64,000 bases of DNA, taken from positions 2,914,001-2,978,000 of the forward strand of contig NZ_CP021874.1 in assembly GCF_002197645.1 (NCBI RefSeq). The letters run 5' to 3'. The position numbers and the translations under genes are program-made. Source of the DNA: Enterococcus wangshanyuanii (lineage in GTDB: Bacteria; Bacillota; Bacilli; Lactobacillales; Enterococcaceae). This document shows positions 3,236-49,903 of this stretch, piece after piece; positions within the stretch are counted from its first letter, which is position 1, and each line of letters starts with the position of its first letter. Below the pieces are notes generated by a model. It ran no database searches. It saw nothing but the letters and a program-made list of their open reading frames with translations, and was not told the DNA's origin.

Positions 3236-5419
3236 TTAGATTTCTAATTTTCCAATGGTTGTTCCAGGTGCTTGTTTTCCTTTTTTATCTAATATAAATT
3301 GTTTGATTTTTTCTCCGTTCGTGAAGACGACGATCATCGTTGTTTGTTTGCCGGCTGCTTCGATTTTGGCTAAATCAGCTGTAGCGACAACATCTCCTGC
3401 AGTTACTTTTTGTCCTTCTGTGACAGAAATCGTAAAGGCAGAATCCTTCATTTCTACTGTATCCAATCCCATGTGGACTAGAACTTCGATCCCTTCGTTT
3501 GTTTGGATCCCTAAAGCATGTTTTGATGGGAAAATACTGCTGATTACCCCCTCTATTGGTGCGTAGATCGTCTCGTTTTCTGGGATGACAGCAAAGCCAT
3601 CGCCCATCATTTTTTGTGAGAAGACAGGATCGTCTACTTCGTCAATTGCGATCACAGTTCCGTCAGCGACTGGAACCAGTGTTTTAGTGATACCAAGATA
3701 ATTGGTAGTATCTGCAGCAGTTGTTGTTTCGGCTTGTGTTTGTTGAATTGAAGGAATTACAGCGCCGGAATCCAGTAAGTCTTGGATGTCTGATTTTAAC
3801 ACATCTGCTTTAGGACCGTAAACTGCTTGTACACCATTGTCTTTGACGATCAGTCCCATAGCGCCTGCTTTTTTCCATGACTCTTCATTTCCAACCTTGT
3901 CTTTGTCATGTACGCTGACCCGTAGGCGAGTCATACAAGCATCGACATCGACGATATTTTCTTTTCCACCAAGTAGATGGATCACCTCGATGATTTGAGG
4001 GTCGATTCCATCGATCGTTGTTGTTCCGCTTGTAGCTGCCGAATCGCTTGAAGTGTCGTTGCTATCATAGTTTCCGTTTCTACCAGGAGTAGCAAAGTTG
4101 AATTTTTTGATCATAAAGTTTGCGATGAAATAAGTCAATACACCGAACCCAATCGTGCAAAGAACGAAATTCAGTAAATCCATTCCTAAACCAGCTTTGA
4201 GTGCAAGTGGTGTTCGCGTCAATAATTCGATATTTCCGAAAGAGTGAACACGTAGCGAAACAATATCTGCCATCGCAAAAGCAGCCCCTTGGATCACTGC
4301 ATATACAACATAAAGTGGTACAGCAGCAAACATGAACATAAACTCTAATGGCTCAGTTACCCCTGTTAAAAAGACAGCCAATGCTGCAGAAAGGTACATT
4401 GATTTGTAATTTGAACGTTTGTCAGGATCGACATTACGATACATCGCGACAGTCATTCCCATTAAAATACCAGAAGCGCCGATCATTTGTCCGACTTTGA
4501 AGCGGGCAGGCGTCCAATTGTTTAGAACGAAATCATACTGAGACATATCGCCAGCGCCTTTTAAGTTGACCAAATCAGTCGCCCAAGCTAGCCATAATGG
4601 ATCTTGTCCAAATACTTGAGTTCCTGCTTGTGCACCGGAAAGGATTTCGTACGTTCCACCTAATTGTGTATAGTTGATCGGAATCGTCAGCATATGATGT
4701 AGGCCGAATGGTAAAAGCAGTCGCTCCAATGTTCCATACAAGAACGGTGCTAGGATCGGAGCGGTATCTTGTGATTGGGCGATCCATAAACCGAAGTTAT
4801 TGATTCCAGCTTGGATCGATGGCCAAATAATTGCTAAAAGGATAGAAACGATCGTTGACCAGAAGATAACAACGAACGGGACAAAACGTTTTCCATTGAA
4901 AAATGACAAAGCGTCAGGTAATTTCCGGAAGTTGTAGTATTTATTAAAGGCCATAGCACCAACAAAACCAGCGATGATCCCGACGAACACTCCCATATTC
5001 AAAGCAGGAGCTTCTAAGACACTGGTGAAGAACCCTTTGACCATGATCTTAGTGCCGAATAAAGTGTGGGTGAAGGCTTGCTCGTCTGCCAGCATCTCAC
5101 TTGTGACACCGAAAATCGAACCAGTGATTCGATTGATCAAGATGAACGAAAGCCCGGCAGCAAATGCCCCGCCCGCTCGTTCTTTTGCCCAGCTTCCGCC
5201 GATCGCTAATGCGAACAGTAAATGAAGATTGCCGATGACAGCCCAACCGATATTTTCGATCACGCCTCCTGTTGTTGCTAAAGCAGTCCAATCAGGATTG
5301 ATCAGCGGGATCGTTTTACCGATACTGATCATCAAACCTGCGGCAGGCATCACGGCAATGACGACCATCAACGCTTTTCCAAATTTTTGCCAAAACTCAA
5401 AACTTAGTAACTTTTTCAT
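3236..5419 (-). CDS. malT: Maltose-specific PTS permease, EIICBA
   Basis: 727-residue membrane protein that imports maltose and phosphorylates it to maltose 6'-phosphate. Domains in order: EIIC of the glucose/maltose family (about 1-420, many membrane segments); EIIB with the phosphorylated Cys in VDACMTRLRV; and EIIA with the active His in VLVHMGLDTV near residue 649. The frame stays open to 5560, but the ATG at 5419 has a strong AAAGGGGAG site and starts the conserved MKKLLSFEFWQKFGKAL region. It is transcribed divergently from malP, from a promoter at 5468-5496 that touches a LacI-type operator. MapP and MalP complete the route. Confidence 0.93.
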   Translation of the reverse strand: MKKLLSFEFWQKFGKALMVVIAVMPAAGLMISIGKTIPLINPDWTALATTGGVIENIGWAVIGNLHLLFALAIGGSWAKERAGGAFAAGLSFILINRITGSIFGVTSEMLADEQAFTHTLFGTKIMVKGFFTSVLEAPALNMGVFVGIIAGFVGAMAFNKYYNFRKLPDALSFFNGKRFVPFVVIFWSTIVSILLAIIWPSIQAGINNFGLWIAQSQDTAPILAPFLYGTLERLLLPFGLHHMLTIPINYTQLGGTYEILSGAQAGTQVFGQDPLWLAWATDLVNLKGAGDMSQYDFVLNNWTPARFKVGQMIGASGILMGMTVAMYRNVDPDKRSNYKSMYLSAALAVFLTGVTEPLEFMFMFAAVPLYVVYAVIQGAAFAMADIVSLRVHSFGNIELLTRTPLALKAGLGMDLLNFVLCTIGFGVLTYFIANFMIKKFNFATPGRNGNYDSNDTSSDSAATSGTTTIDGIDPQIIEVIHLLGGKENIVDVDACMTRLRVSVHDKDKVGNEESWKKAGAMGLIVKDNGVQAVYGPKADVLKSDIQDLLDSGAVIPSIQQTQAETTTAADTTNYLGITKTLVPVADGTVIAIDEVDDPVFSQKMMGDGFAVIPENETIYAPIEGVISSIFPSKHALGIQTNEGIEVLVHMGLDTVEMKDSAFTISVTEGQKVTAGDVVATADLAKIEAAGKQTTMIVVFTNGEKIKQFILDKKGKQAPGTTIGKLEI

Positions 5420-5444
5420 TCTTTTTCTCCCCTTTGCAATTTTT

Positions 5445-5460
5445 ACGCAATCGTTTTCGT
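5445..5460. promoter_or_regulatory. LacI/MalR-type operator, malT side
   Basis: ACGCAATCGTTTTCGT with a central CG lies just downstream of the malT -10 box, over the expected transcript start. It shares GCAATCG-TT with the operator in the malP promoter. MalR, encoded at 8739, is the likely ligand. CcpA is an alternative, because the minus-strand reading is a partial cre match. Confidence 0.6.
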
Positions 5461-39120: not shown

Positions 39121-39277
39121 AGTAAAAAAGACCCGCCTTTTGGGGAAAGGCGGGAAAGGAGTTAAAAATGAAAAAGTGTTTTGTTAGGGTTGTTTGTTGG
39201 TATGTGTATATAATACAAAGCAAATATGAATTTTTTGTGTGCTAAATTATTTAAAACTGTAAACTTTTTCTAAAGTA
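39121..39277. repeat. Direct repeat copy 1 flanking the GH18 gene
   Basis: About 150 bp homologous to 40402-40552 in the same orientation: a GC hairpin, AAAGGAGTTAAAAATG, an identical run GTTAGGGTTGTTTGTTGGTA, TATATAA, and ATATGAATTTTT. It lies just past the end of the GH18 gene. Confidence 0.85.
39123..39200 (-). ncRNA. Putative small RNA, copy 1 (minus strand)
   Basis: Read on the minus strand, this would be a roughly 80-nt RNA. It has a CA-rich 5' part, the segment CATTTTTAACTCCTTT (exact complement of a ribosome site plus start codon), and a CCCGCCTTT/AAAGGCGGG terminator hairpin with a C-rich loop followed by T6. It recalls streptococcal csRNAs, which pair with ribosome sites. On the plus strand a 25-codon ORF (39168-39245, starting MKKCFVRVVCWY) is the competing reading. 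The hairpin may also simply end the GH18 transcript. Confidence 0.45.
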
Positions 39278-39298
39278 GTCTTTAAATGTTGAACAGAA

Positions 39299-40246
39299 TT
39301 AGTTTTTCATCGTATTGATCAAACGTTTTGTCCAGCTAAAATCAGTTTTGGTGATCGTATCATCTCCAAATTGTTTGCCATCACGGTCGATCGCATAAAC
39401 AAACATTCCACCTTTTTGACCGTCCTTAGGATTCCAAACAGCATAAGAATAGGCACGGCTCGTTTCATAAGGATCGATAGTATCATTCCAGCGATTTCGG
39501 TCTTGTTCTTCTGGGAAAGAAATACCAGGTAAAAATTGTTGCGTACTAATAGAGGTTTTATACGTATCCCAAGTGCGATCTAAAGAAGTTGTTGACCGAC
39601 CGTAAGCTTGAAGAAATAAGTAATCACAATAAGGAGCTACTTTTTTAAATAGAGAATGATTGTCTTTATTTGTATCATAAATCAATAATTTTCCAGTAGT
39701 TGAGGCAGGCCCTAATTTTTTCGACAAAGCTTTAAAAGTACCTGTTGCCAGCTCTTCTTGTGTGGCAGTCAAGGTTGATTCCATGTCAACGTCCAATCCA
39801 TCCAAATTCCAAGGTGTAAGATAAGTAGCGATCAATTGCTGCGCATAGGCATCATATTCAGCAGTCGTTGGCTTAGTTCCTACATGAGGAACATTCCATA
39901 GCTCTCGAATATCGATCGTGCGAATAACACGAGTTCCTCTAGCATGAAGTGTAGGGACATACGTGTTCTTTAGTGTATCCCAAAATTTCTGTTGATCCGT
40001 TCCCGGATTAACATAGTGAAAGACAGAAACAATATCGACATCTTCAGGAATATCGGTCATTGCAGTGACATTTTCATCGGGTAAATTAGAATTGGCATCA
40101 TGAGGCATGGTGACATCCCGCCATGTGCGGTAATAAGCCATCATGATAGGATCAGATTGTGTCTGTGCATTAGCTGGATCGGGAAATAAATTAGCTCCTA
40201 ATAAGAGCAACGTGGCAACAAATAAAACCTTGAATGATTTAGACAT
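39299..40246 (-). CDS. Secreted GH18 endo-beta-N-acetylglucosaminidase (EndoH-like)
   Basis: 315 residues. A signal peptide (KVLFVATLLLLGANLF, cleavage near ANA-Q) is followed by one GH18 barrel with the catalytic DGLDVDME motif (DxxDxDxE; Glu is the proton donor). It resembles E. faecalis EfEndo18A/EndoH-type enzymes, which trim high-mannose N-glycans from host glycoproteins, more than chitinases: it is short and has no chitin-binding domain. A cre-like site lies between promoter and start, implying CcpA repression by preferred sugars. Both sides carry copies of the same small-RNA-like element, so the gene sits on a possible recombination cassette. Confidence 0.87.
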   Translation of the reverse strand: MSKSFKVLFVATLLLLGANLFPDPANAQTQSDPIMMAYYRTWRDVTMPHDANSNLPDENVTAMTDIPEDVDIVSVFHYVNPGTDQQKFWDTLKNTYVPTLHARGTRVIRTIDIRELWNVPHVGTKPTTAEYDAYAQQLIATYLTPWNLDGLDVDMESTLTATQEELATGTFKALSKKLGPASTTGKLLIYDTNKDNHSLFKKVAPYCDYLFLQAYGRSTTSLDRTWDTYKTSISTQQFLPGISFPEEQDRNRWNDTIDPYETSRAYSYAVWNPKDGQKGGMFVYAIDRDGKQFGDDTITKTDFSWTKRLINTMKN

Positions 40247-40271
40247 AAAGACATCTCCTCTTTCTTTTTTT

Positions 40272-40285
40272 GGTAAGCGCTTTCT
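40272..40285 (-). promoter_or_regulatory. CcpA cre-like site upstream of the GH18 gene
   Basis: GGTAAGCGCTTTCT matches cre consensus TGWAARCGYWWWCW at 13 of 14 positions. An extended -10 (TGCTACAAT on the minus strand, at 40311-40316) lies just upstream, so CcpA bound here would block elongation or initiation. Confidence 0.65.
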
Positions 40286-40401
40286 TTTTAAGGCGCTTTA
40301 ATACAAAAAAATTGTAGCATAAACAGTAAAGATACCATAGTAGAACGGGTTAAAATAAGTGAACTAGCAAGTATTTTCATTTAAGATAGAACTGTTTTGA
40401 A

Positions 40402-40552
40402 AAAAATAAAAAAAGACCTGCCTTTGGGGAAGGCAGGAAAAGGAGTTAAAAAATGAAAAAAGTGTTTGTTAGGGTTGTTTGTTGGTATACTTATATAATA
40501 AAGGTAAAATATGAATTTTTATTGCACAATATTTTCTAAAAGTAAGAACTTT
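40402..40552. repeat. Direct repeat copy 2 flanking the GH18 gene
   Basis: Second copy of the element at 39121-39277, upstream of the GH18 start. The far end has a perfect palindrome CTAAAAGT-AAGA-ACTTTTAG at 40535-40554. Confidence 0.85.
40405..40484 (-). ncRNA. Putative small RNA, copy 2 (minus strand)
   Basis: Same layout as copy 1. The hairpin is CCTGCCTT/AAGGCAGG: relative to copy 1 one C-G pair has become T-A on both arms, a compensatory change, while the TGGGG loop (CCCCA in the minus RNA) is unchanged. A T7 tract follows on the minus strand. The CATTTTTTAACTCCTTTT segment is again complementary to a ribosome site plus ATG. The competing plus-strand ORF is 40453-40539 (28 codons, starting MKKVFVRVVCWY). 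The -10 is TATATA-like with no good -35. Confidence 0.45.
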
Positions 40553-40680
40553 TAGTGATAAATGATAGAACCGTGCATAGTTGGGGCCAAAATAAGGATT
40601 TCTTGATGGATTCTTAAACTTTTCTACATAGTTTCAGAAGAAAAGCGTGGTAAAATAGGCAGAACGAAATTTGTATACCG

Positions 40681-49326: not shown

Positions 49327-49674
49327 ATGAAAAAGAAAATAAGGATGGCGTTACTTTTTTTAGGAATAGTGTCGATAATCTGTCCGGGAATAAAGGGAAA
49401 CGCTGAGGTAAAAGACAATGGGATTTGGCAAGATGGATCAAAGGCAGAAGTTGAAATCAAGTTTAAAGAAGCTGAGGTACCAATTGTACCTGAGCCCCCC
49501 ATCTATGAACCGCCGTACTCAATAATTCCACCTCAAAAACCAAAAGGGATTTTACCCCATACGGGGGAATTGCTCACCTCGTTTATCATCATGTTAACAG
49601 GCCTGTCTATATTAATTATTTTGATTGGCATCAGTAATTTGAAAAGAGTTTACTACACAGAAATATTGGAGTGA
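49327..49674 (+). CDS. Small LPxTG-anchored surface protein (CscD-type)
   Basis: 115 residues. It has a signal peptide (ALLFLGIVSIICPGIKGNAE), a short Pro-rich middle (VPEPPIYEPPYSIIPPQ), then LPHTGE, a membrane helix and a short basic tail, i.e. a sortase A substrate. Small LPxTG proteins of this size are a regular part of csc/WxL loci (CscD). With almost no folded domain, its job may be to present a Pro-rich segment to partners. The stop is 4 bp before the next gene. The ribosome site is GTAGGTGAAAG. Confidence 0.85.
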   Translation: MKKKIRMALLFLGIVSIICPGIKGNAEVKDNGIWQDGSKAEVEIKFKEAEVPIVPEPPIYEPPYSIIPPQKPKGILPHTGELLTSFIIMLTGLSILIILIGISNLKRVYYTEILE

Positions 49675-49679
49675 AAAAA

Positions 49680-49903
49680 TGAAAGAGTATTTATGGGTTT
49701 ATATATTAGGTGCGGTTGCAGCACTATCGTTTTTAGCTTTTCTTTTAACATTATCGAGGGATATTTTTTTAGTAAAACGTTTGAAATTGGCTAAAATCAA
49801 CTTTAGCTTAAATTTTACGTTACTGCTGATCTCATTGACAAGCATAATTTTGATTATTTATCTATTTGCGTTACTAAAAGACCAAATTCGGATACTAGGA
49901 TAA
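49680..49903 (+). CDS. Small two-helix membrane protein of the WxL locus
   Basis: Roughly 74 residues with two membrane segments (VYILGAVAALSFLAFLLTL and FTLLLISLTSIILIIYLFAL) and a basic loop between them. No family is recognised. It follows the LPxTG gene by a few bases with GGAGTG upstream and is likely co-translated. A role in assembly of the surface complex is only a guess from position. A short GACAG/CTGTC hairpin lies between it and the WxL gene. Confidence 0.6.

Follow-up and report, generated by a model that had tools for sequence, protein, structure and literature searches.

Repeats flanking a GH18 gene of Enterococcus wangshanyuanii as members of a dispersed family of predicted anti-translation-start small RNAs

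On either side of a GH18 gene of Enterococcus wangshanyuanii lies one copy of a direct repeat, both in the same orientation (approximately 39123-39268 and 40407-40553), which raises the question of whether such copies encode small regulatory RNAs (sRNAs), encode a duplicated microprotein, or form a repeat without RNA function. The window, i.e., the whole stretch of 64,000 nucleotides that was analyzed, corresponds to C1:2914001-2978000 of the 4.16-Mb genome (hereafter the own genome), and in a whole-genome search its two copies match each other with E = 2.5e-28. The original prediction had described them as twin elements and left both the sRNA and the microprotein reading open. Both elements are real but do not stand alone, as at least four more copies of the repeat are present in the own genome.

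The features initially read from the letters could be retrieved (Table 1). The hairpin stems of the two copies do differ by a paired C-G to T-A change (CCCGCCTTT/AAAGGCGGG vs. CCTGCCTT/AAGGCAGG), plus one pair fewer, and the CCCCA loop is kept. On the minus strand, each copy ends with a hairpin and a T tract, and on the plus strand ORFs of 25 and 28 codons are present. The segment held to be complementary to a ribosome site exists as well, as the complement of AAAGGAG-N5/6-ATG, but is by itself no evidence, because it follows automatically from the plus-strand ribosome site. No Rfam family matched anywhere in the window at gathering score.

Table 1. Features of the repeat pair and of the gene between the copies (window coordinates).
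Feature	Position	Strand	Basis
sRNA copy A, upstream of GH18 gene, predicted ~80-nt transcript	40409..40489	-	model R1 and Ref84 matches
sRNA copy B, downstream of GH18 gene, predicted ~80-nt transcript	39125..39204	-	model R1 and Ref84 matches
Copy A terminator hairpin, then T tract	40417..40437	-	sequence and predicted fold
Copy B terminator hairpin, then T tract	39132..39154	-	sequence and predicted fold
Copy A anti-Shine-Dalgarno/anti-AUG segment CAUUUUUUAACUCCUUUU	40438..40455	-	sequence; unpaired in predicted fold; conserved in alignment A1
Copy B anti-Shine-Dalgarno/anti-AUG segment CAUUUUUAACUCCUUU	39155..39170	-	sequence; alignment A1; predicted fold
Copy B putative promoter CACACA-N5-TTCATA-N9-TATTAT, box -37/-26 plus -10 box	39210..39241	-	weight-matrix score 39.9
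Copy B extra upstream half-site TTTACA, 22 nt before first repeat	39258..39263	-	upstream regions
Copy A putative promoter TGCAAT-N5-TTCATA-N9-TATTAT, first half-site degenerate	40495..40526	-	weight-matrix score 29.0
GH18 endoglycosidase-like gene between copies, not part of the element	39299..40246	-	Pfam EndoS TIM barrel PF23916
25-codon ORF, judged not coding	39168..39245	+	frame not kept in family
28-codon ORF, judged not coding	40453..40539	+	frame not kept in family

Sequence comparison indicates that the window pair represents two members of a dispersed multicopy family of predicted minus-strand sRNAs. The further own-genome copies at C1:2498523, 3520873, 3424422, and 201938 were obtained by BLAST (loci L003, L004, L005, and L008) and confirmed by a covariance model, R1, which comprises 36 copies, 74 positions and 5 pairs and matches copy A at 40415-40489 (85.8 bits) and copy B at 39131-39204 (104.4 bits). 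Alignment A1 took 36 of 52 pattern matches, leaving out near duplicates and the non-family locus L007; it includes L012 and L014 from phage-labelled records without annotation, and phage-labelled matching records are probably host DNA. All 22 genomes of the genus, own included, gave matches. The covariance-model search that had been proposed as a check detected R1 matches in 103 of 105 Enterococcaceae genomes and in all 17 genera, with 1-16 matches per genome, some of which may be of the Ref84 type discussed below since R1 also detects such loci. R1 gave no match in G030 and G088; the latter genome is 76% complete and the former does have a Ref84 match. Within an order-wide sample, 75 of 295 genomes matched R1, 45 of them in family f1, 29 in f8 and one in f2. 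Family f8 is probably the Vagococcus family, because plasmids of V. fluvialis carry copies: these were seen on small plasmids of 4.5 and 6.8 kb (L010:59-141; L011:5001-5080), and a third such record was listed. A search with the exact core pattern returned 54 stretches of named genomes, of which 51 are labelled Enterococcus or Tetragenococcus and three a Lactobacillales bin, and genome G022, assigned to E. faecalis by 99% identity with a record of that species over 1710 bases, has four R1 model matches. The window itself holds two weak R1 matches, one at 5386-5460 (+, E 0.05), overlapping the complement of a gene start (5419, minus), the other at 49652-49714 (-, E 0.03), resembling a gene-start complement by sequence, as expected for an anti-start RNA.

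Which strand is meaningful was judged from 85 distinct copies (first 75 nt distinct), which were selected by a pattern demanding the core arm and the -10 box and which share ancestry and hence are not independent; an earlier, too strict pattern had yielded 17 copies. Taken modulo 3, the distance from the start codon to the conserved 5' end splits 34/29/22 among these 85, as in a random frame, and in 20 of them the plus-strand ORF is only 4 codons long, which therefore is not the behavior of coding sequence. In favor of a duplicated plus-strand microprotein or leader peptide are the ribosome site and ORF of both window copies and the frame kept between them, yet it is the minus strand that carries promoter and T tract, and given the frame across the family we rejected this reading as extremely unlikely. 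By contrast, promoter, arm, terminator with paired changes and the resemblance to Ref84 make it highly probable that the family members are sRNAs. Thus, of the two options originally offered, that of an sRNA family stood and that of a microprotein fell.

A terminator stem was found on the minus strand in 85/85 copies by a search that demanded perfect pairing and left broken pairs uncounted; at least four T follow within 10 nt past the stem in 84 copies, and the loop holds CCC in 76. The covariation expected in homologues is present among the 85 copies: the stems vary by paired changes around a loop that usually retains CCC, up to six kinds of pair, G-T among them, occur at a single stem position, and at position 5, for example, GC (31), CG (24), TA (17), AT (11), and others (2) are found. 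The predicted folds of both window RNAs consist of an open arm and the terminator hairpin only, and are better than all of 200 shuffles in energy (z -3.63 and -5.30). In alignment A1, ACCC and CUCCUUU are found in the arm in place of UCCC motifs. Each copy probably gives rise to a regulatory RNA of about 80 nt from the minus strand, whose unstructured 5' arm (copy B: CAUACCAACAAACAACCCUAACAAAACACUUUUUCAUUUUUAACUCCUUU) would pair with the Shine-Dalgarno (SD) sequence, the AUG and the first codons of mRNAs beginning AGGAG...AUGAAAAA, a beginning typical of exported proteins. Such pairing would block ribosome entry, and the C-rich terminator loop may act as a second anti-SD site.

Upstream of the predicted transcripts, the box CAYA-N5-TTCAHA, with its second half exactly at -26, occurs in 65 of the 85 copies, and in 63 of these 65 the distance to the -10 box is 9 nt, compared with a box frequency of 0.05% in block-shuffled upstream DNA. 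The strict repeat is missed by 20/85 copies, window copy A among them, whereas copy B passes; the promoter weight matrix was trained on family members with copy B included. The third base of either half-site is a C in 61 of the 64 upstream regions compared, a set that includes the non-family locus L007. Since the copies share ancestry, more weight falls on the occurrence of this box in front of unrelated genes. The box was detected upstream of an FtsX-type ABC permease gene in 9/9 orthologues found, two of them with TTCAAA as second half, the search having covered 41 genomes across the order with nine recognizable permeases, eight of which are outside the genus. This permease gene lies between an LtaS-like gene and a PieR/PieS-like pair. 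Summed over 22 genomes and with sRNA copies included, TTCAYA-N5-TTCAYA-N9-TATNNT with at most one mismatch gave 141 matches vs. 26 for the reversed control. By site sequence, the permease-type site occurs without mismatch in 21 of the 22 genomes and with one mismatch in the remaining one, the gene downstream having been checked in five (own, G003, G007, G008, and G011). The same box also precedes an unrelated sRNA-like gene in the own genome, G003, G008, and G012, located before a gene that we take to be polA-like. This second sRNA-like gene (L098:7850-7990, L168:2381, L167:2780 and 2968, L146; a tandem pair in G008) shows a different short sequence after the box and a terminator at its end; in G003 it holds UUUCAUUUGUGUGAACUCCUAAU, corresponding to anti-AUG plus anti-SD, with variants in other genomes. 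At L098:1712-1820 (G000:C1:444711), a terminator-like hairpin follows a weaker box (score 13.8), possibly marking a further sRNA; the gene before them is presumably aldo/keto-reductase-like.

Given this box, the family is very probably controlled by an OmpR-type response regulator, which would bind at CAYA-N5-TTCAHA just upstream of the -10 box and lead to transcription. The most likely candidate would be the PieRS-like system beside the LtaS-like gene, an identity to which gene neighborhood lends slightly better than even chances. A PieS-like kinase lies within the flank in 7/9 permease loci; both regulator and kinase are present in four of five larger permease regions, and the PieR-like regulator of those four is 83-89% identical to the own-genome one. 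From f8 a single region (8 kb) was examined, in which the permease does not have the regulator next to it. The NCBIfam models of PieR and PieS are the best matches of the own pair but stay below their cut-offs (329.8 vs. 450 and 437.3 vs. 850). The likeness to Listeria extends to an ABC transporter link, as PieRS regulates the transporter pair lmo1505/lmo1506 there, and the part of that report consulted mentions no sRNA for the system (PMC12234432). Autoregulation was pursued as a guide to the controller and abandoned: of the 32 Trans_reg_C matches in the own genome, 30 regulator loci were scanned, three of which gave weak box hits (8.5 to 10.8), and no autoregulation points to the controller because none of the 30 reaches the lowest family score (17.5).

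The same sRNA family might instead stand under another OmpR-type regulator (PhoP-, LisR/EtaR-, or CiaR-like), which we regard as possible but doubtful. The 32 Trans_reg_C matches of the own genome would provide candidates, among them regulators that we take to be LisR-like (L110) and CiaR-like (L118). The helix of L118 reads VVEVYMSNLRKNM, that of CiaR VVEVYVSKVRKKL (PMC3091779, consulted in part). The Listeria LhrC sRNAs are LisR-dependent (PMC4132741). In addition, the TTTACA half-sites at -59 resemble TTTACA/TTAACA repeats by pst genes. For PhoP in particular, the TTWACA-N5-TTTACA pairs by pst genes share the 11-nt spacing, but the third base is T/A there and predominantly C in the family half-sites, so that PhoP was set aside as regulator and kept as a rival. 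Two such Pho-box-like pairs lie at L097:4145-4181 (minus), with start spacings of 11, 9, and 11. Against another regulator in general, only the PieRS-like pair was seen adjoining a further gene with the box, a neighborhood that is repeated in different genera; against a CiaR-like controller, CiaRH is stated not to be found outside streptococci (PMC8186281). The PieRS-like pair hence is our preferred candidate.

The original prediction had likened the elements to streptococcal csRNAs, a likeness that holds for the design but not for membership. The csRNAs of the CiaRH regulon of Streptococcus are likewise multicopy, with unpaired anti-SD and anti-AUG segments and a 6-N5-6 direct repeat close to the -10 box (passages of PMC3091779), i.e., they share a direct-repeat response-regulator box and an anti-translation-start arm with the window-type family. 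However, they belong to another clade, the CiaR box reads NTTAAG-N5-TTTAAG rather than CAYA-N5-TTCAHA, and csRNAs form two stem-loops whereas the window copies are predicted to fold into the terminator hairpin only. LhrC1-5 of Listeria, controlled by LisRK, follow a similar multicopy, two-component-controlled design with CU-rich anti-SD sites that include the terminator loop (the consulted sections of PMC4132741), but possess a stem-loop A that is absent from the predicted folds of the window copies. Membership in LhrC was rejected: the model RF00616 gave no match in the own genome and matched only one of 398 genomes of the class, which belongs to family f46 and not to Enterococcaceae; the single weak match, L276, is without a clear box. 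The best reading of these comparisons is that the family would work like csRNAs or LhrC and is a member of neither.

A closer relative appears to be Ref84 (RF02846, 'Enterococcus sRNA 84'), which has the same 5' start UACCAAC, an anti-SD segment ACUCCUUUUCC before the terminator, and the same length class. Both window copies align with the full-length model (1-87 of 87), copy A at 40409-40487 and copy B at 39125-39202, with scores of 29.6 and 28.7 bits that are below the gathering score of 52 (E 0.28 and 0.42, 4227 families searched). In the reverse direction, R1 finds 12 fetched Ref84-type loci with E 3.8e-7 to 0.013 in a 135-kb search. In contrast to the window copies, where the corresponding segments are non-pairing or unpaired, the Ref84 model contains an extra internal hairpin (UUACuC...GaGUAA). 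The TTCAYA direct repeat is absent from all 12 Ref84-type loci inspected, two of which show loose repeats of a different form. Of the 105 Enterococcaceae genomes, 90 have Ref84 matches at E <= 0.01 and 70 have matches above the gathering score; the two types of loci coexist in the same genomes, and four own-genome Ref84 matches, among those listed, sit elsewhere than the R1-family copies. The window-type family is thus probably a sister branch of Ref84, as judged from these alignments, and the comparison suggests a larger family, missed by the Rfam model at its threshold, of which Ref84 would be one branch. Tandem Ref84-type copies at L261:429-511 and 653-736 (G000:C1:902922 and 903146) have a common upstream GAGGGTTATTAGTTG motif, which suggests yet another promoter input. 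Whether there is a superfamily in which one anti-translation-start RNA stands behind several promoter types, a PieR-like box for some and others for Ref84, we consider an even bet. The E. faecalis sRNA_109 and its counterpart sRNA_093 were described as similar to Enterococcus sRNA_084, and E. faecalis sRNA_112 and E. faecium sRNA_005 as a conserved pair with the first 50 nt conserved and with lipoproteins and ABC transporters as predicted targets (PMC7724050, in the extracts consulted); the latter pair resembles the window family by description only, in its conserved 5' part and predicted targets. Within the mainly open-access literature, parts of PMC5593968, PMC12870237, PMC3166299, and PMC10117718 included, neither the multicopy nature of the family nor its box was found described.

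With regard to targets, the duplex of the arm is stronger at the start than in the gene interior for 45/53 window genes with copy A and 46/53 with copy B, the mean energy for copy A being -14.7 at translation starts vs. -8.6 inside genes. Compared with letter-shuffled sRNAs at window starts, the preference of copy A is only modest (median z -0.6; 12/53 below -2), so much of it reflects base composition and specific targets are predictions only. Two own-genome BLAST matches that are not sRNAs, L006 and L007, lie at gene starts, and gene-start matches are expected because of the arm's sequence. The strongest duplex found involves an OmpR-type regulator gene (L006:804-1517, minus), whose ribosome site plus start complements the arm better than any other own-genome site found (copy A, -35.4 kcal/mol; copy B, -26.7 kcal/mol). 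We take this regulator to be PhoP-like, its NCBIfam models scoring below cut-off. The gene is absent among 12 gene-start matches fetched from other genomes, a chosen subset of weak rows that looked like short gene-start matches; 11 of these 12 overlap an ATG that opens a frame of more than 25 codons, L245 being the exception, and presumably five are pyruvate-carboxylase-like and several lipoprotein-like or secreted.

The GH18 gene itself is not a likely sRNA target, judging from its weak predicted duplexes with the copies (-9.7 and -9.0 kcal/mol; z 0.35 for copy A). An action of the pair in cis on this gene, e.g., as regulator or attenuator, is for this reason, and in view of the loci without the gene given below, quite unlikely, even though both copies and the gene share the minus strand and the gene lies between two copies at the fetched loci of 15/22 same-genus genomes. 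Its neighborhood varies: in G018 the GH18 gene is accompanied by a single detected copy, in G008 two copies are separated by 274 nt and the GH18 gene is missing, and in G002 and G016 the copies are interspersed with other genes without a GH18 match in the fetched region (G006, G013, and G017 were assigned to no arrangement). Across other species, the number of copies at this locus ranges from 1 to 5, and the GH18 gene may be present or absent. Thus the twin arrangement is one state of a variable sRNA locus, and the flanking of GH18 is incidental and not a defining feature of the element. The gain or loss of the intervening gene through the repeats, as originally suggested, could fit such a locus.

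This variable gene content, together with dispersed and tandem copies and with copies on small Vagococcus fluvialis plasmids, might also be expected of a mobile (MITE-like) or recombination repeat without RNA function. However, arm and box are constant whereas stems vary by paired changes, conservation of the RNA extends over 17 genera, copies are conserved at orthologous sites, as seen for the GH18 locus, and a non-systematic look noticed no terminal inverted repeats or target duplications. A mere repeat is consequently very unlikely. Taken together, we probably deal with envelope-stress-controlled, multicopy sibling sRNAs that would block translation starts in Enterococcaceae and probably in the Vagococcus family.

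Enterococci seem to be without Hfq, CsrA, and ProQ homologues, according to the part of PMC7724050 consulted. If our reading is true, the family would join CiaR-csRNA and LisR-LhrC as a further Firmicutes case in which a two-component system acts via multicopy anti-SD sRNAs, with some copies of the family also located on small plasmids. If the superfamily is real, several envelope or nutrient signals would converge on one pool of interchangeable repressors. Near-universal multicopy sRNAs, a defined promoter box and a candidate envelope-stress regulator, the latter linked by genome position to a lipoteichoic-acid-synthase-like gene, together make up a testable circuit.
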